Source of the DNA: Lentisphaerota bacterium
GTDB lineage: Bacteria > Verrucomicrobiota > Kiritimatiellia > UBA8416 > JAUUYL01
Length of the DNA stretch: 64,000 nucleotides
Assembly (NCBI GenBank): GCA_030590485.1
Contig: JAUUYL010000002.1
Span: forward strand, 1-64,000
Reading direction: 5' to 3'
Shown: positions 505 through 24,332 of the stretch, in pieces
How positions within the stretch are numbered: the first letter of the stretch is position 1
How the letters are laid out: each line of letters opens with the position of its first letter
The notes under the pieces: generated by a model
The model's database searches: none
Seen by the model: only the letters and a program-made list of their open reading frames with translations
Told to the model about the DNA's origin: nothing
Made by a program: the position numbers and the translations under genes

Positions 505-652
505 CGGCCTCGGATTGGAGCCTTCTTTGGTATTCTTCTTGTGCTGCTCATCGGACGACGCATGAAGCATACCACAGTAAACAGCTTGTTTCTAATCGGC
601 TCTTTTGGGGCGTCTGCTGTGCTTGCCTACGGCACGCGGCGAGAGCCCTTCC
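505..652 (+). pseudogene. Remnant of an HPP-family membrane protein gene
   Basis: One plus-strand frame encodes about 45 residues that look like the N-terminal membrane segments of an HPP-family integral membrane protein: RIGAFFGILLVLLIGRRM, then LFLIGSFGASAVLAYGTRRE. The motif GSFGASAVL followed by a Y-G is characteristic of that family. In-frame stops lie just upstream, no start codon is attached, and the match ends as the region runs into the 3' end of the opposing ygbA gene. I read it as a broken fragment left by a rearrangement at the copy-A repeat junction. The family call is from motif recognition only. Confidence 0.5.
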
Positions 653-959
653 CTCTCAAAGCATGCCCGACTGCCTTCAAAGGATGCTTTAATATCATCC
701 GGGGGCCGGCATAACGCATGATTTCCTTGATGCGCTCCCGCTGTTCAGGCTGATAGCAGTGGACTTTACAATTAGAGCATTTAGGTTTATCCACGCCAAA
801 TGGGCATTTATCCAGACGCGTATCAGCATAATCAAGCAACTCCTGACAATCCACGCAGAGACCATCGGCAGTGCCATGCCGGCCTTTGCAGTAAATGTGA
901 ATCATAGCTGAGACAGTGTCCTTCTCCTCCTGAAGTTTCGTGGTGCCATCCTTGCCCAT
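627..959 (-). CDS. ygbA: YgbA-type nitrous oxide-stimulated promoter family protein
   Basis: A 110-residue Cys-rich protein with the family's pattern: IHIYCKGRHG near the N terminus, CVDCQELLDYA, then KCPFG and KCSNCKVHCY, and the closing MRYAGPRMILKHP. In enteric bacteria this family is induced by NO; its biochemical role is not settled, though the cysteine spacing suggests metal or Fe-S binding. The ATG at 959 overlaps the stop of metXW (TGATG), so translation is probably coupled; a GTG at 962 is an alternative start with a less good spacing to AGGT. Its place at the end of an hcp-led cluster fits nitrosative stress. The last residues run into the scarred region, so the C terminus may have been altered. 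Confidence 0.88.
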   Translation of the reverse strand: MGKDGTTKLQEEKDTVSAMIHIYCKGRHGTADGLCVDCQELLDYADTRLDKCPFGVDKPKCSNCKVHCYQPEQRERIKEIMRYAGPRMILKHPLKAVGHALRGKGSRRVP

Positions 960-2773
960 CACTCTGACCTGCAGGTGTTTTGCACTCCCACACCCGATTT
1001 ACGACTGGCAACCCTGGTAAAAATATATTCAGCACCAAGATTGCAGCGTTTTAAGGAAACAAATAACCGGTCCAGAACATTGTTACCTGGAAGACAAACC
1101 ATATCAAGGACATCAAGATCTGCTTTATCAAACAAATCCACAATATCGGCTTTCGTTGCTAAATGTATATTAGGCGTCTCATACCATTCATGCGGCAACG
1201 CATCTGACTTGGGCATACGCCCTTTAAAACCCAATGTCACTCTGTTACGCCAATTCCCGAAATTAGGGAACACAATAATACCTTCGCGTGCCACCCGGAC
1301 CATCTCTCCTAAAACAGATTTAGGATTCCGCACTTCCTGCAAGGTGCTACTCAGTATGGCATAATCATACGAATCATCAGCAATAATAGACAAGCCCTCA
1401 TCCAAATCCCCACGGAATACATCATGTCCTTTGTCTATTGTCCGAATAACATTATTGAGATCTATATCAACACCAAATCCAACAGTCTGCTTCGCAGTCA
1501 GAAGAAGGCTCAATAAATCACCTTCGCCACAGCCAAGATCCAGAATACGGGACTTGGGCTGAACCGCATCAACTATCATACGAAACTTTGTCTTTCCAAG
1601 AGCGCCGGGCTCATTAGTCACCGAAACCTTGTCAGAACCAACCCAAGGCAAGAACGCCTTAACTGTCTCAGAAAGATTCTGGATGTCGATTAAGAACGCA
1701 TCATGCCCATACGGTGCCTTCAACGTACAACATGAAACATGCTTCCCTGAACGCAACAAGGCTGCGGCAAGCTCCGTCGACTGCTCTGGAGGAAACAACC
1801 AATCCGAGCTGAGGCCTATGATGAGAAATTTCGCCCTTACATTCTCAAAAGCCGCTGCGAGACTCCCGAACTCTTTAATAAGATCAAATGAGCCCATCGC
1901 CTGCGTTATACACAGATATGAGTTTGCATCAAATCGCTCAATAAACTTCTCCGCTTGATACTTCAGGTAGCTTTCAACTTGAAAACACTGCCCGTCAGCA
2001 TCCACACCACCCTTTGTCTCTCTTCCAAATTTCTCCTGTAGACTCTCAGGTGACAGATAGGTGATATGCCCTATCTTCCTCGCATGTGAAAGTCCCCATT
2101 CGGGTCCCGCATCATTGTTATAATAATCTCCATCAGCCCAATTCGGGTCAGAGACAATCGCGTCCCGCGCTACAACATCAAATGCCAAAGCTTGCGCCGA
2201 CAGAGATGCGCCAGCCGCAATACAAATACACCTGTCCACCAAATCTTGATATTGAATTCCCCACTGGATCACCTGCATCCCACCAAAGGAACCGCCAATA
2301 ACAACAGCAAGCCTCTCTATACCCAACTGTTCAAGCAAAAGCTTTTGAACCCGAACTACGTCAGCAACCGTGATCTCCGGAAAAGAAGAACCATACTGCT
2401 TACCTGTTTCAGGATTAATCGAAGAGGGACCTGTCGTCCCGGTGCATCCGCCAAGAATATTAGCGCAAACAACAAAATAATAATCAGTATCTATACCCTT
2501 GCAAGGGCCAATCATTTCTTCCCACCAGCCAGGTTTAGCATCAGAAGGATCATTTCGGCCCGCAACATGCGCATCACCAGTAAGCGCATGACACACATAG
2601 ACAACATTATCACGATCAGGCGATAACACCCCATACGTCTCATACAAAACGGTAAGTTCATGCAGAACCCCGCCTTTACGCAACTTTAAACCCTCATCAG
2701 GCAATGGTATTTGAACCGTTTGCGCTTCTACGATACCTACGCTGTTATTGTTGTGCTTTTCTTCAGTCATCAT
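959..2773 (-). CDS. metXW: Homoserine O-acetyltransferase fused to a MetW methyltransferase-like domain
   Basis: This 604-residue protein joins two proteins normally encoded by adjacent genes. Residues about 15-385 are MetX, an alpha/beta hydrolase that acylates homoserine for methionine synthesis. CHALTGDAHVAG, the nucleophile elbow GGSFGGMQ and the late APYGHDAF (catalytic His region) are all visible. Residues about 400-590 are MetW, a SAM-methyltransferase fold with ILDLGCGEGDLL and the family signature FPNFGNWRNR. MetW is known to accompany and support MetX in many bacteria. Fusion would fix their stoichiometry. Methionine genes elsewhere in the window are a Cys/Met PLP enzyme and a homocysteine methyltransferase. 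An 82-base gap separates it from the cupin gene, so it could have its own promoter although it follows the hcp genes. Confidence 0.93.
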   Translation of the reverse strand: MMTEEKHNNNSVGIVEAQTVQIPLPDEGLKLRKGGVLHELTVLYETYGVLSPDRDNVVYVCHALTGDAHVAGRNDPSDAKPGWWEEMIGPCKGIDTDYYFVVCANILGGCTGTTGPSSINPETGKQYGSSFPEITVADVVRVQKLLLEQLGIERLAVVIGGSFGGMQVIQWGIQYQDLVDRCICIAAGASLSAQALAFDVVARDAIVSDPNWADGDYYNNDAGPEWGLSHARKIGHITYLSPESLQEKFGRETKGGVDADGQCFQVESYLKYQAEKFIERFDANSYLCITQAMGSFDLIKEFGSLAAAFENVRAKFLIIGLSSDWLFPPEQSTELAAALLRSGKHVSCCTLKAPYGHDAFLIDIQNLSETVKAFLPWVGSDKVSVTNEPGALGKTKFRMIVDAVQPKSRILDLGCGEGDLLSLLLTAKQTVGFGVDIDLNNVIRTIDKGHDVFRGDLDEGLSIIADDSYDYAILSSTLQEVRNPKSVLGEMVRVAREGIIVFPNFGNWRNRVTLGFKGRMPKSDALPHEWYETPNIHLATKADIVDLFDKADLDVLDMVCLPGNNVLDRLFVSLKRCNLGAEYIFTRVASRKSGVGVQNTCRSE

Positions 2774-4261: not shown

Positions 4262-5905
4262 CTATCCCAATATTTCCTTTAAGTCTTGCTCAGCCGTTGT
4301 GATCGGCGCAATACTGAACTTCTCAACAAGAACATTCAATACTGCAGGCGTAACAAACGCAGGTAGAGTCGGCCCCAGCTTGATGTTCTTGATTCCAAGA
4401 TGCAACAGAGTCAAAAGTATGCATACCGCTTTCTGCTCATACCATGATATGATCATGGACAACGGCAAGCCATTAACATCCGTTTCAAACGCATCGGCCA
4501 AAGCAACAGCTATCTGTACGGCTGAATACGCATCATTACATTGCCCTAAATCAAGCAAACGCGGAATACCGCCAATATCACCAAAATCGAGCTTGTTGAA
4601 ACGGTATTTACCACAAGCCAACGTCAATATCACACAATCATCAGGTACCGCCTGAGCAAACTCCGTGTAATAGTTACGCCCGCTCTTGGCGCCATCACAA
4701 CCGCCCACGAGAAAGAAGTGCTTGATCGCACCACTCTTTACCGCGTCTATCACCTTGTCCGCGACACCAAGAACCGCATTATGGCCAAAGCCAACAGTAA
4801 TGCTCTTGTCCGGACCATCCTCGGCAAAACCATCAGCCGCCAGCGCCGCCTCTATTACAGGCGCGAAATTACCGTCAGCAATATGGTCAACACCCGGCCA
4901 GGCAACCAAACCACAGGTGAAAATACGGCCTATGTATGTGTCCGCTGGACGCTGAATACAATTGGTGGTCATCAATATCGAACCAGGAAAAGCATCAAAC
5001 TCTTTCTTCTGGTCCTGCCATGCACCACCATAATTACCAACGAGATGACTGTACTTCTTCAACTCAGGATAACCATGGGCTGGCAGCATCTCACCATGAG
5101 TATATATATTAATACCCTTACCCTCTGTCTGCTTCAAAAGCTCTTCCAAATCCTTCAGGTCGTGACCTGAAATCAGAATGGCCTTGCCTTTGAGTGGCTC
5201 TATCCTAACCTGAGTCGGAACCGGGTGTCCATATGTTCCGGTATTAGCCGTATCCAAAAGCCCCATAACCGTCAGATTGACCTCACCACATTTAAGGTTC
5301 ATACCAAGAAGCTCATCAACCGTTGAATTTTCCTTTGTCAGAAAATCTAAAGCTTCATGGAAGAACGCAAACACAGCCTGATCTTCCTGCCCCAGAATCA
5401 ATGCATGGTCAGCATAGGAAGCCGTACCCTTTAATCCATAAGTCAAAAGCTCCTGCAAACCGACAATGTCATCGCCCAATTTCCCTTTACGACCATCAAT
5501 AGAAACTTCTTCACCTTCCTTAATCAGATCCGCCATGCTATCGGCAATCTTCCATTGCGCAGGTCCTGTCAATTCTTCTTCGATATTTCCAGCCTTTTGA
5601 ACGGCGTCCTTATACATAGCTGCAGCTTTTTCTTTCACTGTTGACGCTGCACGCAAGATTGACTCCAGACGCTCAACATCAAAATTTACATTCGTCACAG
5701 TCGTGAATAGAGCTTCAGTTACAAACACATCGACATCTCGGTCATGAACCCCCAACTGCCCTGCCCTGTGAGCGTACATTGAGATTCCTTTGGCCGCATG
5801 GATCAGCAGATCCTGAAGCGCCGCCACATCAGGCTCTTTCCCACATACACCTGTCTTCACACAACCTTCACCCTTAACAGTCTGTTCACATTGATAACAA
5901 AACAT
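4262..5905 (-). CDS. hcp: Hydroxylamine reductase / hybrid cluster protein
   Basis: The 547-residue Hcp carries a cubane cluster and the hybrid 4Fe-2O-2S cluster. It reduces hydroxylamine in vitro, and its recognised physiological roles are NO reduction and protection from nitrosative stress. The N-terminal ligand motif is C3-x2-C-x8-C-x5-C (MFCYQCEQTVKGEGCVKTGVC), the short spacing typical of strict anaerobes. Further family marks are the hybrid-cluster regions around CGEVNLTVMG, TTNCIQRP, GGCDGAKSGRNYYTEFA, LACGKYRF and LGQCNDAYSA. It heads a minus-strand operon (zinc ribbon, Fe-S protein, cupin and probably metXW and ygbA) and is divergent from a Crp/Fnr regulator with only about 59 bases between starts. 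Confidence 0.97.
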   Translation of the reverse strand: MFCYQCEQTVKGEGCVKTGVCGKEPDVAALQDLLIHAAKGISMYAHRAGQLGVHDRDVDVFVTEALFTTVTNVNFDVERLESILRAASTVKEKAAAMYKDAVQKAGNIEEELTGPAQWKIADSMADLIKEGEEVSIDGRKGKLGDDIVGLQELLTYGLKGTASYADHALILGQEDQAVFAFFHEALDFLTKENSTVDELLGMNLKCGEVNLTVMGLLDTANTGTYGHPVPTQVRIEPLKGKAILISGHDLKDLEELLKQTEGKGINIYTHGEMLPAHGYPELKKYSHLVGNYGGAWQDQKKEFDAFPGSILMTTNCIQRPADTYIGRIFTCGLVAWPGVDHIADGNFAPVIEAALAADGFAEDGPDKSITVGFGHNAVLGVADKVIDAVKSGAIKHFFLVGGCDGAKSGRNYYTEFAQAVPDDCVILTLACGKYRFNKLDFGDIGGIPRLLDLGQCNDAYSAVQIAVALADAFETDVNGLPLSMIISWYEQKAVCILLTLLHLGIKNIKLGPTLPAFVTPAVLNVLVEKFSIAPITTAEQDLKEILG

Positions 5906-6978: not shown

Positions 6979-7422
6979 TTAAAGCTCGGCCTGCCCCAAC
7001 CAGTTGCCATGCTTGTTGCAATTCTCAATGGCAGATATGGTTCCTGACTGCGCTTTCAAATGCAATCCTGCGGCAGGATGACAAACTTCCGGTGACAACC
7101 AGACTCTGGAAATAAATTTGTTATCGAGGTAGTAGTCTATATATTTGATATAGTGATTCGGCTCCATCACATGCTCAATCTCACCCACCTTGACATGCAC
7201 ATCATAACAACCACCACCCGGAATCAACCCACACTCCCTCACCACTACAACCTGAGGTATATGCTTCTTCTCCGCTTCTGTCAGATCAGCAGCATCCGCC
7301 GGCTTGTTGATGGCATCTGCATCCTCCGCAAAATCACCAGCACCTGCACCACACACCAAACAGGCATCAGGAAGATCATTAAACTCTATATGCCCACATT
7401 TACTACATACGTACAATTTCAT
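6979..7422 (-). CDS. Superoxide reductase with an N-terminal rubredoxin-like domain
   Basis: A 147-residue protein. Residues 1-35 (MKLYVCSKCGHIEF...CLVCGAGAGDF) form a rubredoxin-type iron site with two CxxC pairs. Residues about 50-147 are the neelaredoxin/desulfoferrodoxin catalytic domain: EKKHIP, EHVMEPNHYIKYI, CHPAAGLHL and the Cys-x-x-His near CNKHGNW supply the His4-Cys iron site. It reduces superoxide to peroxide without making oxygen. Its N-terminal domain differs from the CxxC...CC desulforedoxin domain of the second homologue at 14022. The ATG at 7422 has a GGAG site; the frame to 7485 runs back over the promoter. A sigma-54 promoter and paired TGTCTCA sites lie upstream. Confidence 0.92.
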   Translation of the reverse strand: MKLYVCSKCGHIEFNDLPDACLVCGAGAGDFAEDADAINKPADAADLTEAEKKHIPQVVVVRECGLIPGGGCYDVHVKVGEIEHVMEPNHYIKYIDYYLDNKFISRVWLSPEVCHPAAGLHLKAQSGTISAIENCNKHGNWLGQAEL

Positions 7423-7467: not shown

Positions 7468-7485
7468 TTGCACTATACGTGCCAA
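7468..7485 (-). promoter_or_regulatory. Sigma-54 (-24/-12) promoter of the rubredoxin-SOR gene
   Basis: On the minus strand the sequence reads TTGGCACGTATAGTGCAA. GG and GC are separated by exactly 10 bases and the -24 element TTGGCAC is perfect. It lies 46-63 bases before the SOR start codon and points toward it. Paired TGTCTCA sites lie about 90-105 bp further upstream, a normal enhancer distance. Confidence 0.85.
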
Positions 7486-7571
7486 TCAGCCCCGTCAGAG
7501 AATAATAAATGTAAGTTACTGCGTATAAGTACGTTAGGAGTAGAGATGCGCATTGCGTCTATATATGCCAG

Positions 7572-7587
7572 TGTCTCAGATGTCTCA
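7572..7587. promoter_or_regulatory. Tandem TGTCTCA activator (enhancer) site
   Basis: TGTCTCAGATGTCTCA contains two direct heptamers at 9-base spacing. The same half-site is found upstream of the sigma-54 promoters at 15157 and 21469 and, as an inverted repeat, before the activator gene at 23396-23424. I infer it is the binding site of the ArsC-PAS-AAA+ activator. Confidence 0.65.
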
Positions 7588-8153: not shown

Positions 8154-8170
8154 TGGCATGATTATTGCAT
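8154..8170 (+). promoter_or_regulatory. Sigma-54 promoter of the 64-aa Cys-rich gene
   Basis: TGGCATGATTATTGCAT has TGGCA at -24, TTGC at -12 and the exact 10-base GG-to-GC spacing. It lies 31 bases before the ATG at 8201. Confidence 0.8.
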
Positions 8171-8200: not shown

Positions 8201-8395
8201 ATGCCTTTCAGAGAAATGCCAGGAGTTACCGGCTTAGTGTATGTGCCCAACGATGATGGCAACGCAAAGAAGCACAACTGCCCCGATTGCTATAACTGCC
8301 AATGGTGTAGCGATGCCAAATGCGAATTATGCCTGGCGAACAAAAAGAACTCCTGCCGTAGGAAATGCAAAAAGAAGGGGGCGCGTAAGCAGTGA
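8201..8395 (+). CDS. Small Cys-rich protein, unknown function
   Basis: A 64-residue protein starting MPFREMPGVTGLVYVPNDD. It has six cysteines in its second half (CPDCYNCQWCSDAKCELCL, then SCRRKC) and a strongly basic tail. The N-terminal segment is one I have met in anaerobes, but no function is known to me. The cysteine density implies a bound metal or Fe-S cluster. Two ATGs are adjacent; the second (8201) has the better spacing from the AAAGGAGGT site. Expression from a sigma-54 promoter next to the oxygen-defence genes suggests a stress role, which is inference. Confidence 0.78.
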   Translation: MPFREMPGVTGLVYVPNDDGNAKKHNCPDCYNCQWCSDAKCELCLANKKNSCRRKCKKKGARKQ

Positions 8396-14511: not shown

Positions 14512-15084
14512 CTACCAGTTCTCTGCGAGTACTTCAAAATAAGCCTGAGGATGAGCGCAGGCCTTGCAAAGCTCCGGTGCCTCAGGCCCCTCGTGCAGAT
14601 AACCGCAGTTCTTACAACGCCATACCACGACCTCATCCTTCTTGAAAACTTTACCTTCTTCAATGTTCTTGATCAAAGCAAGATAACGCTTCTCATGCTG
14701 CTTCTCCGCCACCGCGATAGACTCAAAAACCTCCGCAATATTATCAAAACCCTCTTCGCGAGCCACTACCGCGAATGACGGATACATATCCGTCCATTCA
14801 TAGTTTTCTCCAGCAGCACTACCCTTCAGGTTGTCTACGGTCTCGCCAATGATACCAAAAGGGAATGCCCCTGTTATCTCCGCCTCACCGCCATCCATCA
14901 ATTTGAAAAGCCTCTTGGCATGCTCTTTTTCCTGATCCGCCGTCTCAAGAAAAATATTTGCCATCTGCACATACCCATCTTTTTTGGCCTTACTCGCGAA
15001 ATATGTATACCTGTTACGAGCCTGTGACTCCCCCGCAAATGCCGCCATCAGATTTGTTGCCGTCTTACTTCCTTTTAACTCCAT
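14512..15084 (-). CDS. rbr: Rubrerythrin
   Basis: The 190-residue classical rubrerythrin reduces hydrogen peroxide with electrons from rubredoxin or NADH-dependent partners. Ferritin-like helices carry [35 protein letters not shown] and EKQHEKRYL. The C-terminal rubredoxin-like domain has [12 protein letters not shown] and [13 protein letters not shown]. It is the first gene of the oxygen-defence operon and has a good sigma-54 promoter 73-89 bases upstream of its start, with TGAGACA sites further up. Confidence 0.97.
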
Positions 15085-15156: not shown

Positions 15157-15173
15157 AGCTGATTCTGTGCCAG
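15157..15173 (-). promoter_or_regulatory. Sigma-54 promoter of the rubrerythrin operon
   Basis: The minus strand reads CTGGCACAGAATCAGCTA around these positions: CTGGCAC at -24, GC at -12, exactly 10 bases between GG and GC. It faces the rbr start at 15084. A TGAGACA pair lies about 120-135 bp upstream. Confidence 0.83.
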
Positions 15174-15290
15174 ATTCAACAAAAACAGCATGTTTATTCG
15201 TATCTAGCTGGCATTCATAATGTTATAAATTAGCAACAATCTCCAATTCTCGGATATAGTCTCAATAACTGCTTCCATCTCCTGAACTTT

Positions 15291-15306
15291 TGACACAACT
15301 GAGACA
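15291..15306. promoter_or_regulatory. TGACACA/TGAGACA activator site upstream of rbr
   Basis: TGACACAACTGAGACA is two heptamers at 9-base spacing, the same arrangement as at 7572-7587 read from the other strand. A further imperfect half-site (AGTCTCAA) is at 15257. It sits directly after the ptsI stop codon. Confidence 0.62.
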
Positions 15307-15310
15307 CCGC

Positions 15311-16942
15311 CTACATGAGCTCAGCAGCAGCTTTCCTAATATCCGTTATACGCCTTGGACTCACACTGACAGAGGTGATCCCCATGTCTATCAACTTTCT
15401 GATATGTTGCGGGTCACCAGCGAGCTCGCCACAAACAGACAACGGCTTGCCAGCTTCCTGCGCCGCATCTGCCATCTGATTCATAAGCTTCCAAAAAACT
15501 GCTCTGTCAGGATTATAGTCATAAGATACAAGCTCATTGTCACGATCGACTGCAAAAAGGTATTGCGTCAAATCGTTTGTACCAATACTGGCAAAGTCAA
15601 TGAGCTCATACAATTCGCGCGCCATAAGACAGGCTGACGGGACTTCGAACATTATGCCGTGCAGAATCTCTCCATAATTGAAATCTTTGATCGCATTCAA
15701 GAAGACACTCTTAATCTCCACAAACTGATCCGCATCAATAATCATCGGATACATGATCTTTATTCTGCCGCCTTTAACCTCTGATATTCTAGCCAAAGCA
15801 CGAGCCTGAGTTTCAAGAACGTCTCTTCTGCCCAACAACAACCTTGCACCACGCCAGCCAAGTGCCGGGTTCTCTTCACTCGGAATCTGCATAAATGGCA
15901 TCGCCTTGTCAGACCCAATATCAAAAAGCCTGAAAACTACACCCTTACCCGCCATTGCCTTAGCTATTTTGTCGTAACGATCAAAAAGTTCATCCTCAGA
16001 AAAAAACCTGCCTGCAGCCATCACTTCAAATTCTGTTCTGTAAAGACCAACCCCCTCGGCATTCATCCTGATGCATTCATCCAGATCAGCCGGCAAGCTT
16101 ACGTTTGCCATTACCTCAAAACCTTTAACAGGATCAACAGCCACAGGCTCGACCCTTGGCGCCTCCGTTTCCGCATCCATAAAATCCGCAATACTCTCAT
16201 CGGTCGGATGAATTATAACCACGCCTGAAGAACCATCTATCAACAGATTCGTACCACAACCGATCAGACCCCGAACCCCTTGCAGTCCGCTCACTGCCGG
16301 TATACCAAGCGCTCTAGCAAGGATTGCTGCATGCGAATTGACTCCACCATGCTCAGTAACAAAACCTATGGTCAGATCAGGATCAATATCAACAGTAAGT
16401 GTCGGAGTTAACTCATCCGCAACAATTATCCGGTTCTTGCCGTGCTGACAATGTTTCTTGTCACATTGCAGTGATGGCTGCATGTTGCCCATTACATCCA
16501 GTAGCCTGCGCTTTATCTCACCAAAATCAGTCGCCCTAGCACTGATATATTCATCATCAATAGCCTGTAAGCGCGCCTCATAAGAATCCAAGACATGCGT
16601 AATCGCATAATCAGCATTAACGTTCTCTTCTGTTATATGCGTAACAACTTCTTTTCTAAGCTGCGAGTCTTCAAGAATCATCTTCTGCGCAGTGAAAATC
16701 TCAGCTTCCGCTTTTCCTATTCTCTCTTCGACTCGGTCATGAATCACAACAAGGCGTTCCCCGGCAATCTCTATTGCCCTGTCTACCCTTGCTATCTCCC
16801 TCTCAATCCCCTCGCCTTCCACCTTGTACATGGACAGATTGCTATGCCTATTCTCATTAAAAAGGCATACCTTCCCAACAGCTCGTCCCTTACTCAGAGC
16901 AAGACCTTCAATTCGGGTTTCTTTCTGTTTCGTCTTCTCCAT
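15311..16942 (-). CDS. ptsI: Phosphoenolpyruvate-protein phosphotransferase (PTS enzyme I)
   Basis: The 543-residue enzyme I takes phosphate from PEP onto a histidine and passes it to HPr. The phospho-His loop is GGVNSHAAILARALGIP. Later marks are the PEP-binding GVGLYRTEFEVMA, RLFDIGSDKAMPF, and SIGTNDLTQYLFAVDRDN, and the C-terminal SVCGELAGDP. Length is slightly under the usual 570-575. No HPr or EII gene lies in the window. It follows fprA by two bases, so it is probably in the same transcript. It may serve a regulatory PTS or an HPr encoded elsewhere. Confidence 0.94.
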   Translation of the reverse strand: MEKTKQKETRIEGLALSKGRAVGKVCLFNENRHSNLSMYKVEGEGIEREIARVDRAIEIAGERLVVIHDRVEERIGKAEAEIFTAQKMILEDSQLRKEVVTHITEENVNADYAITHVLDSYEARLQAIDDEYISARATDFGEIKRRLLDVMGNMQPSLQCDKKHCQHGKNRIIVADELTPTLTVDIDPDLTIGFVTEHGGVNSHAAILARALGIPAVSGLQGVRGLIGCGTNLLIDGSSGVVIIHPTDESIADFMDAETEAPRVEPVAVDPVKGFEVMANVSLPADLDECIRMNAEGVGLYRTEFEVMAAGRFFSEDELFDRYDKIAKAMAGKGVVFRLFDIGSDKAMPFMQIPSEENPALGWRGARLLLGRRDVLETQARALARISEVKGGRIKIMYPMIIDADQFVEIKSVFLNAIKDFNYGEILHGIMFEVPSACLMARELYELIDFASIGTNDLTQYLFAVDRDNELVSYDYNPDRAVFWKLMNQMADAAQEAGKPLSVCGELAGDPQHIRKLIDMGITSVSVSPRRITDIRKAAAELM

Positions 16943-16944
16943 CT

Positions 16945-18129
16945 TTATTCAGACGCCATCGCTTTCTCAGCGAGCATCCTTCCTGCCTCATAACATTCTT
17001 CCAACACCTCTTCTGTCGGCACAAACTGACACTCTATAGCCTCACGAAGTATCTCCACCTTCATGTCCGTCAAATATCCCTCAACATCCCGCGCACCACC
17101 CTTTGACCACCCGTATGACCCAAAGGCGAATCCCTTCTTCCTGGCAGGCCCTAGCCCTTTGAGATACGTAAGCGCCGCAGCCATGGCGGGCATAAGCGTC
17201 TTATTTAAAGTGGGAGAACCCACCGCAACCACCGCAGCATCAAGAATCTCAGCCGCAATAACGGTCATGTGATCATTACTGACGTCTATCAGTCTCGCCT
17301 CAATATTCTGCTCCATCGCCCCAGCCAGTATCGCCTTTGCCATCTTCTCTGTACTCTTCCACATGGTATCATAAATCACAAGCACCTTACGGGCCTGCTT
17401 CTGCGTCACCCAGTCCTGATAGGCAGACATAATAACATCTATATTCTCGCGCCAGATAATACCATGACTCGGAGCTATTATCTCAATATCCATCTTAGAG
17501 GCCTTGTCCAGCACCCGCGCTATAGGCCCTCCGAAAAGCATGACTATATTCGCATAGTATGTCTTTGCCTCATGCATGATAATGTCCAGCGTGTCTTCAT
17601 CGTCAAATCTATGGGAAGAAGCATAATGCTGACCGAACGCGTCCATGGAAAAAAGAAGTTTCTCTTCAGGGATATAGGTGAACATCGACTCCGGCCAGTG
17701 AACCATCGGCGTCTCCATAAAAGTCAGCGTACGCTTCCCAAGGGAAATACTATCTCCATCCTTAACAATCTTCCACTTCCAGTCCTTAGTATCGTAATGC
17801 ATGTTCAACGCCTTCTGGCATTTGGCATCGCAAACCAGCTCCGCAGACCGACATACACTCATAACCGAAGGAAGCCCCCCCGAATGATCAGGTTCCGCGT
17901 GATTGCAAACTACATAGTCGACCTTGGACAAATCTGTCAGTTCGGAAACATTCGACATAAGACGTTCGACAAACTGAGCTTTGACGGTATCTATCAACGC
18001 CGTTTTGTCGTCTCGCACAAGATACGCGTTATATGTTGAACCCCGCTCAGTTCGGTATCCATGAAAATCCCTTACACCCCAATCAATATACCCCACCCAG
18101 TCAATATTATCACAAAGCTCTGTATTCAT
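16945..18129 (-). CDS. fprA: FprA-type flavodiiron protein (oxygen/NO reductase)
   Basis: A 394-residue cytosolic A-type flavoprotein. The N-terminal metallo-beta-lactamase-like diiron domain shows the ligand motif CNHAEPDHSGGL plus VHWPES, SMDAFGQHYA and APSHGIIWR. The C-terminal flavodoxin domain shows KVLVIYDTMWKSTEKMA and GSPTLNKTLMPA for FMN. The family reduces O2 to water or NO to N2O with rubredoxin as donor, and a rubredoxin is encoded 3.5 kb away. It lies between a DUF255 protein and ptsI on one strand. Confidence 0.96.
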   Translation of the reverse strand: MNTELCDNIDWVGYIDWGVRDFHGYRTERGSTYNAYLVRDDKTALIDTVKAQFVERLMSNVSELTDLSKVDYVVCNHAEPDHSGGLPSVMSVCRSAELVCDAKCQKALNMHYDTKDWKWKIVKDGDSISLGKRTLTFMETPMVHWPESMFTYIPEEKLLFSMDAFGQHYASSHRFDDEDTLDIIMHEAKTYYANIVMLFGGPIARVLDKASKMDIEIIAPSHGIIWRENIDVIMSAYQDWVTQKQARKVLVIYDTMWKSTEKMAKAILAGAMEQNIEARLIDVSNDHMTVIAAEILDAAVVAVGSPTLNKTLMPAMAAALTYLKGLGPARKKGFAFGSYGWSKGGARDVEGYLTDMKVEILREAIECQFVPTEEVLEECYEAGRMLAEKAMASE

Positions 18130-18147
18130 TAAGATACCCCTTACATG

Positions 18148-20322
18148 TCATTCCAAGAAACGCACAAGTTTAGCAAGTTCTGCAGGGATTTTAACAGGTT
18201 TTTTACAAGAATAATTCTCACAAATATAAACTGTCGCCACCCCTTCCTGCGTTTTCTTGTCCTGTAACAGAGGTATCTTACCCTCAAGCGCATCAGAATC
18301 CCCGGCAGCCCTGTCAATCAGAGCCACTATCCTGTTGGGCATAAACTCCGCATGAATGACTTTCAGCATCCCACTCAAGGCTTTCCCGTCTCTTTTCGCC
18401 GCTATAGCAATCTCTACAGGTGAAGACATGTAGAAATCAAGAGCACGAAGCAGATAACCAATCCCTCGCGGCTGACGACCAGATCGAGGCACAACCGCCT
18501 TAAGCACCTCCTCCGCCATATCATAGTAATCGCTGTTATCAGTCAACCGCGACAACCTGAGCAGAACAAGCGTCGCCATCGAGTTCCCCGATGGTGTCGA
18601 GCCGTCAAAGAATGGCTTTGTTCTCCTCAGTAAATGCTTATGACTGTCTGCTGTGAAGAAAAAACCCGGCCCGACAGAATCCTTGAACAACTCGATCATT
18701 TGCTCCGTCAACCGCTCACTCTCATCAAGCCATCTAATATCAAATGTGGTTTCATAGAGATCAATAAACGCATTTGCCACGGCGGCATAATCATCCAGAT
18801 ACCCCGGAAGCTTGCCTTTTCCTTTGCTATAGACATGCAAAAGCGCGCCATCCTTAATCATGTCTTCCACAATAAACTTTGCCGCATTCTTTGCGACAGC
18901 AAGATACCGTTCGTCCCCCAGAACCTGATACCCCTTGGCAAAGCTGGAAATCATCAAGCCGTTCCATGCCGTAAGCACTTTGTAATCCTGCCCCGGATGA
19001 ACTCGCTTTGTCCTGACAGCAATTAATTTTTTCTTTAACCCGTCAAGCCTTTGCTCAACCTTCTCGGCTGTCTTATTCTCACCCCTGGCAAAATCCTCCG
19101 TCTCGCGAGGAACAAAGAGTATGTTCTCGCCCTCAAAATTTCCTCCCTCAGTAACCCCGTAGTAATCGCAGAAAAAAGCACCGCCCTCCTGCCCGAGAAT
19201 CTCCATTATCTCACTTCGTGACCATACATAGTATTTCCCCTCAACACCTTCGCTATCGGCATCCTGCGCCGAATGAAAACCTCCAAATTCATCTGTCATT
19301 TCGTTTATAACAAAATCCAACGTCTCCGATGCTACCTTCTTATAAATAGGCTTCTTTGTGAGCTGAAACGCCTCCAGATATACCCAGCTGAGTAGAGCAT
19401 TATCATAAAGCATCTTCTCGAAGTGAGGAACCAGCCAGGTCCGATCCACCGAATATCGATGAAAACCCCCGCCCAACTGATCATACATCCCGCCATAAGC
19501 CATCTTATCTAATGTCAAAGTAGCCATATCAAGCAACTTCTCACTGCCAGAATGCCTGTATTGCCTCATAAGCAAGGCTATAGCACCACTTGGCGGAAAC
19601 TTCGGAGCATTCCCAAACCCTCCCCATTTCTGGTCAAACGCGTAAACTAGCGACTCTGCAGCTTCAGCAAGAACATCAGAATCGATATCACCGTCAACCC
19701 AAGTCGGTTTCCGTAGCAACGCCTCGGTCATACCTTTTGCAGCCTTGGCAACATCTTCATTATTCTCTTTCCATGACGAAGCAATGTTCAAAAGAATCTT
19801 TTTAAATCCCGGTCGGCCAAACTTGTCGTCAGGCGGGAAATATGTTCCACCGAAAAACGGCTTTAAATCAGGCGTCAGAAAAACCGACAAAGGCCAGCCT
19901 CCACTACCAGTCATCATCTGAACCGCACTCATATAGATCTCATCAACACCGGGATGCTCTTCACGATCCACCTTTACACAGACAAACTCCCTATTCATTA
20001 TCTCAGCTATGTCTTCGTTCTCGAACGATTCCCGCTCCATCACATGGCACCAGTGACAGGCGGAATAGCCAATCGAAAGAAAGATAGGCTTCCGTTCCTT
20101 GCGAGCCTTCTCAAACGCTTCATCACCCCAAGGATACCAATCCACCGGATTATGGGCATGCTGAAGCAAATACGGGCTTGTTTCATTGATGAGCTTATTC
20201 ACATGCCTCTCCTTCACAGTGTTAACAGGACCAACAATATCTTTCCCAGCATCTTCCGCCCGACACCCGACCAGCATCATCACAAAAAATATTCCTGCCA
20301 TTACCAAGCAGCCTGCCTTCAT
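18148..20322 (-). CDS. DUF255 thioredoxin-domain protein (YyaL/SPATA20 family), exported lipoprotein
   Basis: A 724-residue protein. The start [20 protein letters not shown] is a lipoprotein signal with the lipobox LVGC. Residues about 40-180 are the DUF255 thioredoxin-like domain ([21 protein letters not shown], then [19 protein letters not shown] with CxxC). The remainder is an alpha/alpha-barrel like the glycoside hydrolase/epimerase-type fold ([28 protein letters not shown]). The family has no firm enzymatic assignment. Most members are cytosolic, so a lipoprotein signal here points to a periplasmic thiol role alongside the neighbouring thioredoxin lipoprotein. Confidence 0.9.
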
Positions 20323-20695: not shown

Positions 20696-21163
20696 TTATT
20701 TTTTAAGCAACTTCTTCAGGTGCTTGACATACTCTTCCGCGCCACCAGCCCGATAACCAGTCCGAGCAATCAGCTTACCTTTGGAATCGATTAATATCAC
20801 CGTAGGGAAACCCTTGACCCTGTACTTCTCCGACAGTTTCTGATTCTGTTTCTTTACCTTATCAGATTGTTTTTTCCTGTTCGGGAAATCTGCAAGAAAC
20901 AAAACAAGATTCTCATCCGCATATTTCTTGAACTCAGGCTTGCTGAAGATTTCTTTATCCAGCCTGATACACCATCCGCACCAGTCGGAACCCGAAAAGT
21001 CGATTAAGATAGGTCGTCCGCCCTTAGCTGCGACCTTCTGTGCCGCATCAAAATCCGTAAACCATTCAACCTTCGATTCTCCAGCCGCAACAGCTTCACC
21101 CTCCTTGACATTGCAACCAGCCAGCAATACCGCCACTATCATTAAATATAAATAATTCTTCAT
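20696..21163 (-). CDS. Thioredoxin-fold lipoprotein
   Basis: A 155-residue protein starting MKNYLYLMIVAVLLAGCN, a lipoprotein signal with lipobox LAGC. The thioredoxin domain has the active site SGSDWCGWCIRLDKE and the cis-proline region KGFPTVILIDSKGK. It is likely a periplasmic disulfide reductase or chaperone fed by DsbD. The start at 21163 follows an AGGTGG site; the frame to 21211 is a meaningless extension. Confidence 0.9.
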   Translation of the reverse strand: MKNYLYLMIVAVLLAGCNVKEGEAVAAGESKVEWFTDFDAAQKVAAKGGRPILIDFSGSDWCGWCIRLDKEIFSKPEFKKYADENLVLFLADFPNRKKQSDKVKKQNQKLSEKYRVKGFPTVILIDSKGKLIARTGYRAGGAEEYVKHLKKLLKK

Positions 21164-21241
21164 AATAATCCACCTCACATTCTCCATACCCAATAATCCA
21201 TCTCTAATCATCCAATCTCCGCGCGAGCCTCCACGCTCGCG

Positions 21242-21445
21242 CTATTCCCAGACTCCCCTTTTCGCATGTTCGTTTTTTTCACGCTCTGCCTGGGTTCTTA
21301 TCTTGTAAGCACAATCTCTTACCACACTATAAAGAAGAACACATCCATCATCCCGACTATTCGCCTCGCCTTCATCCGCAAGTATCGTCAACTTCAATGC
21401 AGCGTCCAAAGCCTTCTTAATATGGCTATTGCAATTCTTATCCAT
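21242..21445 (-). CDS. Small conserved protein, unknown function, first gene after a sigma-54 promoter
   Basis: A 67-residue hydrophilic, mostly helical protein (MDKNCNSHIKKALDAALKLT...DDGCVLLYSVVRDCAYKIRTQAEREKNEH). Three cysteines are spaced through it. I recall similar short proteins in anaerobes but no function. It has a strong GGAGGGAAGG site. The upstream -24/-12 promoter and TGAGACA half-site place it in the proposed activator regulon. A GC-rich hairpin (GCGCGAGC/GCTCGCGC, 21221-21242) overlaps its stop codon. Confidence 0.75.
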   Translation of the reverse strand: MDKNCNSHIKKALDAALKLTILADEGEANSRDDGCVLLYSVVRDCAYKIRTQAEREKNEHAKRGVWE

Positions 21446-21468: not shown

Positions 21469-21485
21469 AGCTAGATTTGTACCAA
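21469..21485 (-). promoter_or_regulatory. Sigma-54 promoter of the 67-aa gene
   Basis: The minus strand reads TTGGTACAAATCTAGCTT: TTGG...AC at -24 (T for C once), AGC at -12, 10 bases between GG and GC. It starts 24 bases before the ATG at 21445. Confidence 0.72.
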
Positions 21486-21593
21486 CAGTAGATGGAAATT
21501 TAAGATATCCAGAAGAATGCTGTAAACATTGGCCTTTTAGATGATCTACATATGGCAGCAACTGAGGATGTATCACTGGCAGGTGCGAAATGC

Positions 21594-21607
21594 GGGACAT
21601 TGAGACA
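21594..21607. promoter_or_regulatory. TGAGACA activator half-site
   Basis: GGGACATTGAGACA: one perfect TGAGACA at 21601-21607 and an imperfect partner next to it. It lies 118 bp upstream of the -24 element at 21482 and also just beyond the stop of the activator gene. Confidence 0.5.
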
Positions 21608-21633: not shown

Positions 21634-23373
21634 CTAAATATCGCCGACATCGTCAAGAAAGCGGTAGAGCGTGGCTCGTGAGACACCGAGGTATTTCGAT
21701 GCTTCCACTCGGTTATCGTTGGTCTCCTTGAGTGCCGCGCGAACGGATGCTATATCCAGCTTCTTCCTGCGCCGCTTCTTTATCTCTCCAGCACCAGGAA
21801 TACGCAGTCCTTTTCTCGGCGGCAGATGAATCGGCTGGATTTGATTGCCCCTGCATTTCACAAGAGCAAATTGAATCCAGTTCTGAAGCTCTCGGACATT
21901 ACCCGGCCAGTCGTAGGTCATCATCAAATCTAAAGTCTCAGGCGCAAGCTCTATCCCCTCTTTTCCTACATTCTGCAGTTCCCTGTTCAAAACATAATCC
22001 ACAAGCAATGGAATGTCATTGCGCCTATCACGCAATGGCGGGAGGTCTACAGGTACAACGTTCAATCTGTAGTAAAGATCTTCCCTGAACCGTCCGGCTT
22101 CAATCTCATCCATGAGATGTTTATTGGTCGCGCTAATCACCCGCACATCTACCTTCTGAGTCTTTTCGCTACCAACACGCTCAAAAGCACCATCCTGCAA
22201 TACACGCAAGAGCCGCACCTGCATTGCGGGCGGAATATCTCCTATCTCATCAAGAAATATGGTCCCGCCATCAGCTAGTTCAAAACGACCCTTCTTATCC
22301 CGAATAGCACCTGTAAATGCGCCCTTCACATGTCCAAATAATTCGCTCTCCAACAAAGCCTCAGGCAATGCACCACAATTGACCGGCACAAAAAGCCCTT
22401 TTGATCTCTGCCCCTCATTGTGAATAGCCGCCGCAACAAGCTCCTTGCCCGTTCCACTCTCCCCCTGAATAAGGACTGGTACGCTGGAGTCTGCAAGATC
22501 TCCTATCAATTCAAAAATCTCCAGCATCTCATGGTCTCGCCCTATAATACCCGCGAAACTATTGATCTTGCGCACCTGCTTGGCAAGCCTCCGCTCGCGC
22601 GTTACGTCCCGGAACGAAACAAGAACACCTATCTCACCCCTAGCAGCATCCGCCATTTTCTTGATTACCATCTCAATCGCTCGCGACTCGCCGCTCTTTG
22701 TTGTTATATTGATTTCCTGCTTAGAAACATCACCTATAGGCGTACTATTATCACAGAAATGGCAGTCATTTCCGCAGAAGTTTCCGGGGAACACATCATG
22801 GCAATCGTGATTAATAACATCCTCACGACTATAGCCTGTAATCTCCTCAGCCGCTTTATTGAAAAAGAAAATGCGACGGTTCATATCATGCGCAATAATT
22901 CCGTCATGGATGTTGGCTAATATTGTGTCAGAACAACACTTAGCCTCCGCGAAAGCCTGCAAATAACCGCACTCAAAGAAATCATCAACCAACTGCTTGA
23001 TCTTGTCTCTGCCCTGACGAAATGCTTCTAGGATCTCCTCTTCGCTTCCTTCCGCTGCATCAGGATCAGGAAGACCCCAATTCACCACTTCAGGATGGCC
23101 GGGGAGAACCGGACAACTCTCAGCCGCGTTGCCGCAAAGCGTAACAACGACATCAAAATCAAGTGCCGACAGACTATCAAGATCTTTCGAGGCCTGCTTC
23201 GATATATCCACCCCGACTTCCGCCATTACCTTAATTGCGGTCGGATGAATATGAGACGCCTCCGTCCCTGCACTGGCAATCTCAACTCCAGCCTCTTTTC
23301 TGGCAAGGACAAACCCCTCCGCCATTTGGCTGCGACATGAATTCCGGGTACATAAAAACAAAACCTTATTCAT
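21634..23373 (-). CDS. Sigma-54 activator with an N-terminal ArsC/LMW-phosphatase domain (ArsC-PAS-AAA+-Fis)
   Basis: A 579-residue fusion. Residues 1-135 are a complete thioredoxin-coupled arsenate-reductase-type LMW phosphatase domain: P-loop C8-TRNSC-R14, the redox cysteines C80 and C87 in [15 protein letters not shown], and the acid D103 in WGLPDPD. Residues about 150-262 are a PAS domain with a Cys-rich insert ([17 protein letters not shown]). Residues 275-510 are the AAA+ core with GESGTGKE (304-311), GAFTGA (351-356) and FLDEIGD. Residues 535-579 are a Fis-type helix-turn-helix ([17 protein letters not shown]). ArsC-type domains normally stand alone as enzymes; here one could sense arsenate, a thiol oxidant or a phosphorylated ligand. 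Its likely sites are the TGAGACA repeats, one of which precedes this gene. Confidence 0.95.
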
Positions 23374-23395: not shown

Positions 23396-23424
23396 TGTCT
23401 CATTTAAAAGCATAAAGTGAGACA
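23396..23424. promoter_or_regulatory. Inverted repeat TGTCTCA-N15-TGAGACA before the activator gene
   Basis: Perfect 7-base arms, 22 bases upstream of the activator's start codon. Its position suggests autoregulation, and it gives the heptamer its orientation. No -24/-12 promoter was found for the activator itself. Confidence 0.68.
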
Positions 23425-23485: not shown

Positions 23486-24094
23486 TTAACCTTCAGCTCC
23501 ACGCAATTTATCAAGTCTTCCCTCCACCTTCTTGAGAATTTTCCTTAGCCTTCTGTCATTTGGCAACCTTTCTGATAGCTTTTTCATCTACTGACTAACC
23601 GCTGCTCCAGTACCTATATTCAACAACTGCACAACTTCACGTTGAGTCAGATCCGAATAGCGGGATAGGTGCATGGCGGCAACAGCACGCAGATAACTCC
23701 CCCTGCGGCGTTGCCGGAATTCCTCGACCACCTCTACTTAAAATATCTCTGCAAGGATATCTAACACCTTCCCTGGCTCAAGAGACTCGGTTATTCATCT
23801 AAAGGATATATCTTCAGGAGCATTACTTTTCTCTATCAGTTTCTGATACAGCTCATCTATCTTTGCCCTGAAACCATCACTCCCTATACTCCGTGGCGAT
23901 TCCTTGAGGGCTTCTTTAAATTCTGCATCTGGAGGAAAGCAGGTCGTTTAAGCGGTCTCAACTGCCTCAATAATCTCGCTACAAGATAATTCCGCCCATT
24001 CTACGCAGCAATTGCACTCTATACCTCCACCGAAAGACCAGATCCTATTCGGTTGGCAATTCCATCTACCCACAGATTATTCATAAGACCCATA
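23486..24094 (-). pseudogene. Decayed REP-associated (RAYT-type) transposase, C-terminal part
   Basis: The minus strand encodes pieces interrupted by at least three stop codons and frame changes. Readable parts are SDGFRAKIDELYQKLIEKS, EPGKVLDILAEIF, RQRRRGSYLRAVAAMHLSRY, DLTQREVVQLLNIGTGAAVS and LSERLPNDRRLRKILKKVE. The last three form the C-terminal helix-turn-helix-bearing region found on some Y1-type REP-associated transposases. The catalytic His-x-His domain was not found, so only the tail survives. A GGGGTCAACCC end motif lies just beyond at about 23456. It is a fossil of a repeat-maintaining element. Confidence 0.7.
23968..24094 (-). repeat. 127-bp repeat, copy B (inverted partner of 341-467)
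   Basis: On the minus strand this is the 5' end of the transposase pseudogene and matches copy A at 341-467 with two mismatches over 127 bp. The pair could recombine and invert the intervening 23.5 kb. Confidence 0.93.
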
Positions 24095-24128
24095 AATCTT
24101 AGATAAGGCCTTTTCGAAAACGGCTACT

Positions 24129-24332
24129 CTATTTATCTTGAACACCAAGCTTCTTGAGTATGATGCCCATTGGACAAAATCCGGAGAACCCAAACTGAAA
24201 AAGATTCAAACCGACGAATGCCGTAAAGAAATACCAGTATGGATGCACCCATGTACCTAACGCCAAACTACCAAGAATAAATATGCCCGCAACCACATGA
24301 ATCCAATCTGCAACAACCATCTTACGTTTCAT
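24129..24332 (-). CDS. DUF2892-type small membrane protein
   Basis: A 67-residue protein with two hydrophobic helices: MVVADWIHVVAGIFILGSLALG and YWYFFTAFVGLNLFQFGFSGFCP, ending CPMGIILKKLGV. This matches the small inner-membrane DUF2892/YgaP-tail family often found beside rhodanese and sulfur-transfer genes. It is the last gene of the TauE-MoaD-ThiF-MMPL group. Function unknown; the shared sulfur context is suggestive only. Confidence 0.82.
   Translation of the reverse strand: MKRKMVVADWIHVVAGIFILGSLALGTWVHPYWYFFTAFVGLNLFQFGFSGFCPMGIILKKLGVQDK

Follow-up and report, generated by a model that had tools for sequence, protein, structure and literature searches.

The heptamer TGTCTCA stands upstream of sigma-54 promoters in the window, the whole 64,000-nucleotide stretch of Lentisphaerota bacterium DNA analysed here. 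It very probably serves as the binding site of an activator resembling arsenate reductase that switches on genes of defence against oxygen and thiol stress, and its arrangement is repeated across an entire order of uncultured bacteria. The sites share a unifying geometry, which the original prediction missed: a reverse copy, TGAGACA, lies 83-90 bp before the TGG of the -24 element, and a forward copy, TGTCTCA, lies three, four or five helical turns farther upstream. Taken as a whole, it is likely that the heptamers form a UAS read by this activator, that its core target is an operon, that the regulon has spread to the rubrerythrin (rbr) and superoxide reductase (SOR) genes and that the signal is oxidative or thiol stress.

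Sigma-54 activators are best known for the control of nitrogen, motility and catabolism. In these uncultured bacteria, whose defence genes are of the anaerobe type, protection against oxygen and thiol stress seems to be governed by one such activator with an atypical, ArsC-like input.

Heptamer sites of the window

The SOR/Rbo gene (6979..7422, minus strand) encodes a rubredoxin-like domain and a superoxide reductase, with a desulfoferrodoxin domain (PF01880, 1.9e-17) and a weak rubredoxin-like N-terminus (PF21349, 3.2e-5, under its gathering score). Its predicted -24/-12 sigma-54 promoter, TTGGCACGTATAGTGCAA, was found at 7485-7468 (minus strand), and the heptamer tandem predicted upstream of it, TGTCTCAGATGTCTCA, at 7572-7587. 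The nearer heptamer, TGAGACA (7572..7578, minus strand), lies 87 bp upstream of the TGG of the -24 element, the proximal copy of relatives being at 83-90, and the second reverse heptamer (7581..7587, minus strand) lies 9 bp beyond it, at 96 bp. Read in gene orientation, the tandem consists of two reverse copies (TGAGACATCTGAGACA). The 2.6 Mb genome contains no other exact copy of the tandem, and the site has no distal forward heptamer.

The rubrerythrin gene (14512..15084, minus strand; NF045767, 301 bits with a cut-off of 200) is preceded by the sigma-54 promoter TGGCACAGAATCAGC (15158..15172, minus strand), and the operon adjoining the activator gene, hereafter the lead operon, by TGGTACAAATCTAGC (21470..21484, minus strand). 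Their heptamer sites span 15306-15291 and 21607-21594. The claim that the heptamer precedes both promoters is borne out by one exact distal copy each, at 15300..15306 (127 bp upstream) and 21601..21607 (116 bp upstream), both on the minus strand and both forward, unlike the SOR tandem. The second copy, however, is degenerate, with no true doublet; at rbr it reads TGTGTCA (15291-15297, minus strand). In the proximal position, near-matches are located 85 bp upstream of the rbr promoter (TGAGACT, 15258..15264, minus strand) and 84 bp upstream of the lead-operon promoter (TGATACA, 21569..21575, minus strand). TGATACA also occupies the proximal position, at 87, in the relatives G018 and G012.

The promoters were compared by a 14-point architecture score, based on a reverse heptamer at 82-91 and a forward heptamer at 100-142 upstream of -24/-12. 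The score was 12/14 for the SOR promoter (shuffles of its own upstream region, p = 1.7e-3), 13/14 for rbr (own-region shuffle, p = 1.5e-4) and 13/14 for the lead operon (p = 5e-5), while the other seven -24/-12-like matches in the window scored at most 10. The window contains 16 single heptamers where 8.7 would be expected, a roughly twofold excess which, taken alone, is weak evidence; the strong evidence for the heptamer is its position relative to -24/-12. The idea that the heptamer is a chance word in the window was ruled out by the shuffles and the genome-wide patterns described below.

The inverted heptamer repeat predicted before the activator gene is also present (23396-23402 and 23418-23424). 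The copies are 22 bp apart, start to start, and the pair ends about 22 bp before the activator ATG. A -24/-12 element was looked for between the pair and the ATG and was absent, and the pair was rejected as a sigma-54 promoter element. Doubled or inverted heptamers had been claimed upstream of sigma-54 promoters at four places; three stand, and 23396-23424 is the exception. No convincing sigma-70 site was found near the pair. Since no sigma-54 promoter follows it, a role as an autoregulatory operator, possibly in autorepression, is just a guess. Between the activator gene and a YgaP-like gene (24129-24332) lies what looks by eye like the remnant of a transposase-like coding sequence, interrupted by in-frame stops (23500-24100, minus strand).

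Genome-wide patterns and site geometry

Pattern searches were performed in 57 genomes, with the reversed pattern as a control. TGAGACA followed at 70-100 nucleotides by a promoter gave 39 matches (9 in the control), 19 of them at a gap of 84-88 (p 2e-6), and TGTCTCA at 111-141 nucleotides from a promoter gave 47 (2 in the control). The composite of the heptamer pair and the promoter was found 20 times, compared to 2 for the control, and 19 of the 20 matches belong to genomes with the activator (Fisher p 9e-6 across the whole set). The latter association is partly phylogenetic, because it is weaker within the order (p 0.027); for two of the three patterns, the within-order association with the activator is modest (p 0.03 and 0.06).

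The proximal copy, at least 6/7 identical to TGAGACA, lies at 83-90 bp in 20 of 22 promoters, a set consisting mostly of lead-operon promoters, with other targets as the rest and several members picked because they matched a pattern. The distal forward copy is located 29-33, 40-42 or 50-54 bp beyond the proximal one, with a single case at 24, and the pair spacing shows helical periodicity (p 5e-5 versus a uniform null). The half-sites lie on the same face of the DNA, three, four or five turns apart, an arrangement well suited to an AAA+ ring that acts on sigma-54 polymerase through looping.

The tandem had been taken as the defining form of the site. It has to give way to the convergent pair TGTCTCA...TGAGACA, which is the rule and has its proximal copy at a constant position near 87 bp. 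In 8 of 31 sites, a second, degenerate direct copy is found at +8/+9, and the tandem is therefore a secondary feature that recurs and is most fully formed at the SOR gene.

A looser composite pattern, run on the genome to which the window belongs, retrieved the lead operon. It also pointed to one further gene, for a pterin-4a-carbinolamine dehydratase (L133:1128-1469, contig C134), whose promoter has a heptamer 116 bp and AGAGACA 83 bp upstream. The reversed control also gave one match, so this gene is only a tentative further member of the regulon.

The lead operon and its conservation in relatives

The lead operon, on the minus strand, begins with a gene for a small conserved protein of 67 aa with the signature DDGC...RDCAYKIR (21242..21445), followed by genes for a thioredoxin/DsbH-like protein (20696..21211), a DUF255 thioredoxin-domain protein (18148..20322), a flavodiiron protein (16945..18129) and a PtsI-like PEP-utilising enzyme (15311..16942). 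The small DDGC protein has no family in Pfam or NCBIfam; its single-sequence model (pLDDT 73) comprises two helices and found no significant structural match. In about a dozen relatives, the operon likewise opens with a gene of this unannotated family (67-87 aa), and in G004 (L137:4193-4915) the small protein is fused to a thioredoxin behind a heptamer sigma-54 promoter. The operon of relatives contains varying selections of thioredoxin, DUF255 protein, flavodiiron protein, PtsI-like enzyme and rubrerythrin, the last often inside the operon, as well as ferritin, DsbD, glucose-6-phosphate dehydrogenase and others. The flavodiiron protein is missing from it in L140, L146 and L147.

The relatives compared are related at the order level, none being closer. 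In the intergenic stretch directly downstream of the activator orthologs, the only features they clearly share are the beginning of the small gene, a -24/-12 promoter of the TGGCAC type and the heptamers. An exact heptamer lies at most 150 bp upstream in 10 of 12 promoters found by their position downstream of activator orthologs, and a heptamer promoter adjoins the activator gene in about 10 genomes. At five activator-bearing loci (L009, L013, L014, L016 and L021), no heptamer was found beside the activator; in G023, G013 and G010, however, the heptamer is at the operon, which is located elsewhere in the genome. The predicted link of the heptamer with sigma-54 promoters and with the ArsC-type activator is thus seen in the window, genome-wide and in relatives. 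Loss of the heptamers, or their random placement relative to the promoters, was not observed at the activator-adjacent promoter of the order-level relatives.

Other genes behind such promoters in relatives encode AhpC (peroxiredoxin), ferritin, rhodanese, Hsp20, DnaK, thioredoxins and, judging from a reading of the N-terminus only, ClpB. Some of the single-match targets will be chance matches. The additional targets, from peroxiredoxin, ferritin and rhodanese to Hsp20, DnaK and ClpB, fit a response to thiol and protein damage. The predicted regulon comprises thioredoxins, flavodiiron protein, rubrerythrin, SOR, peroxiredoxin, ferritin and chaperones, and the operator layout is precise enough for target prediction in any genome of the group.

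The activator and its probable signal

The putative activator (21634..23373, minus strand) consists of an LMWPc/ArsC-like domain (residues 4-133), a PAS domain with a Cys cluster, a sigma-54 AAA+ domain (PF00158, 1.2e-71) with the GAFTGA loop and a Fis-type HTH (PF02954, 23.2 bits versus 22.0). The loop is kept across the orthologs except that it is masked in L017 and reads GSFTGA in L007. Judged by its domains, the protein is a bEBP, and a host sigma-54 gene is present (PF04552, 209.6 bits). Its scores against curated bEBPs are under the equivalog cut-offs (PrdR 357.5/795, NorR 323.9/476, ZraR 298.3/760), which places it as an ortholog of none of them. About 20 orthologs were found in the same order and one in another order. 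A scan of named genomes gave mainly AAA+ matches from many phyla, the best one, to a Planctomycetota MAG, being limited to the AAA+/HTH half (59%).

The N-terminal domain has its best match among arsenate reductases (1jl3, 1.8e-32) and aligns end to end with the arsenate reductase of B. subtilis, including the three redox cysteines; the protein of the window keeps Cys9-x5-Arg, Cys80 and Cys87. Its scores against ArsC families are under the cut-offs (TIGR02691, 138.3 versus 174.3; NF010053, 111.7 versus 215). Although the orthologs keep the remainder of the protein well, several have a degenerate active-site loop in the ArsC domain, and the catalytic Cys/Arg loop is altered in L008, L012 and L015, which retain the operon and the sites. 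This indicates that arsenate chemistry is not required and that the domain probably senses rather than catalyses.

From the sites, their geometry, their conservation and their association with the activator, we infer how binding, activation and signalling may proceed. The heptamer would be a UAS half-site read by the Fis-type HTH of the activator, a bEBP with an ArsC/LMWPc-fold and Cys-rich PAS input. Stress would oxidise or otherwise alter its N-terminal domains, and the AAA+ ring would assemble on the convergent pair TGTCTCA...TGAGACA, i.e. on two phased half-sites. The ring would then loop to sigma-54 polymerase, leading to transcription of the redox-repair operon, SOR and rubrerythrin. Across the order, the core target would be one operon, led by the small DDGC protein, and in the lineage of the window the regulon would have spread to separate sigma-54 promoters before the rubrerythrin and SOR genes. 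The layout also lets one test the use by a bEBP of half-sites several helical turns apart.

It is possible, though unlikely, that the activator senses arsenate, arsenite or a metal, in which case the attack of arsenic on thiols would explain the induction of the redox genes. This would agree with the likeness of the N-terminal domain to arsenate reductases and its kept Cys9, Cys80 and Cys87, and with SO_0444-type efflux permeases (ArsP_1) whose genes follow heptamer promoters or lie close to them in G007, G011 and G019, the last two being recognised by sequence likeness only. However, the operon and sites persist in the three orthologs with a changed catalytic loop, the ArsC NCBIfam score is under the cut-off (138 versus 174) and most targets have oxygen, peroxide or thiol functions. 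The most likely signal is oxidative or thiol stress, perceived via the cysteine-bearing N-terminal domains.

The assignment of the heptamers to this activator, rather than to another regulator with the activator nearby incidentally, can be questioned in two genomes. In a Planctomycetota MAG (locus L153), the sites are laid out in the same way but accompany a receiver-PAS-AAA+ protein, and G020 has a TGAGACA promoter before the small-protein gene, with no ArsC-type ortholog found in this 74% complete assembly. It is nevertheless distinctly unlikely that the sites belong to another bEBP paralog or to a repressor of stress genes that works without sigma-54. The activator is adjacent in about 10 genomes, and most of the matches fall in genomes that carry it; the recognition helices of the two close bEBP paralogs in the window are different, and the fixed distance to the -24/-12 elements argues for a bEBP site.

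Separate promoters of the SOR and rbr genes

The expectation that relatives would keep heptamer promoters at the same genes failed for SOR and rbr: none was found before 15 other SOR and 25 other rbr genes. The two sites therefore look specific to the lineage of the window, as two added promoters. Their lack of counterparts, together with the missing distal forward copy at SOR, could also mean that the lead-operon promoter is the only real target and that the SOR and rbr heptamers arose by chance. This reading is quite improbable: good -24/-12 elements stand before the right class of genes, the proximal copies are at 87 and 85 bp, as in the lead promoter of relatives, and the scores of 12 and 13 (shuffle p 1.7e-3 and 1.5e-4) exceed the maximum of 10 reached by the other matches of the window.

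A one-mismatch -24/-12 element, TGGCATGATTATTGCA, was noticed at 8154-8169 (plus strand), before a Cys-rich small ORF (8201-8395), with no heptamer at the usual places. A homolog of this ORF is located near an AhpC gene in G018 (L134:4275-4577).

The genes of a hybrid cluster protein (4262-5905, minus strand) and a YgbA_NO family protein (627-962, minus strand) lie near SOR without heptamers, which suggests a nitrosative-stress neighbourhood. They and the flavodiiron protein of the operon would suit a NorR-like system responding to nitric oxide, with the flavodiiron protein as effector, but such a signal is improbable, as the activator has no GAF domain, unlike NorR, the hcp and ygbA genes have no heptamer promoter and some relatives lack the flavodiiron protein in the operon.

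Comparison with known systems

The predicted system would work like a known sigma-54/bEBP regulon. It resembles the NtrC-family regulons (NtrC, NorR, ZraR, PrdR) in the GAFTGA AAA+ domain, the Fis HTH, the sigma-54 gene and upstream sites 80-140 bp from -24/-12, and PrdR is the best curated whole-protein match of the activator, far under its cut-off (358 versus 795 bits). Unlike these systems, it has an ArsC/LMWPc input and a redox-defence regulon, and its half-sites are 3-5 helical turns apart instead of forming one compact palindrome. The ArsC domain shares the LMWPc fold and, in the window protein, Cys9-x5-Arg, Cys80 and Cys87 with the ArsC of the pI258/B. subtilis type, but differs from it in being fused to a bEBP, in scoring under the equivalog cut-off and in the loss of active-site residues in several orthologs.

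A TGT-N10-12-ACA UAS of FhlA/NifA-like EBPs, reported for many EBPs of Clostridiales, was reconstructed before their sigma-54 promoters by comparative genomics (PMC6615313). Its convergent half-sites also begin with TGT and end with ACA; in contrast, the UAS predicted here is not of that type, having the full heptamer TGTCTCA and half-sites 24-54 bp apart, start to start, rather than 10-12. The text of that study mentions neither rubrerythrin nor oxidative stress. The sigma-54 regulome of Desulfovibrio vulgaris (PMC4641369) is similar in concerning an anaerobe with many EBPs and UAS motifs derived by comparison, but neither rubredoxin nor an EBP with an ArsC or phosphatase domain is mentioned in its text. 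In the literature searched, the heptamer motif, the ArsC-bEBP fusion and the regulon are not described, which does not prove absence. An undescribed class of bEBPs is conceivable, albeit still somewhat doubtful: an ArsC-fold thiol sensor, largely freed from catalysis, would act with widely and variably spaced, helically phased half-sites and provide an order of uncultured bacteria with a sigma-54-dependent equivalent of an OxyR/PerR regulon.

In the Planctomycetota MAG that carries L153, the site at L153:8050-8336 reads TGTCTCACTGTCTCATT...ATGAGACA and is spaced alike (117, 109, 88) relative to the sigma-54 promoter that follows. It is located near the gene of the receiver-PAS-AAA+ bEBP, which has no ArsC domain, and a PilB/GspE-like ATPase gene. 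With the same geometry found next to such a bEBP, the heptamer site may be common to a wider bEBP subfamily.
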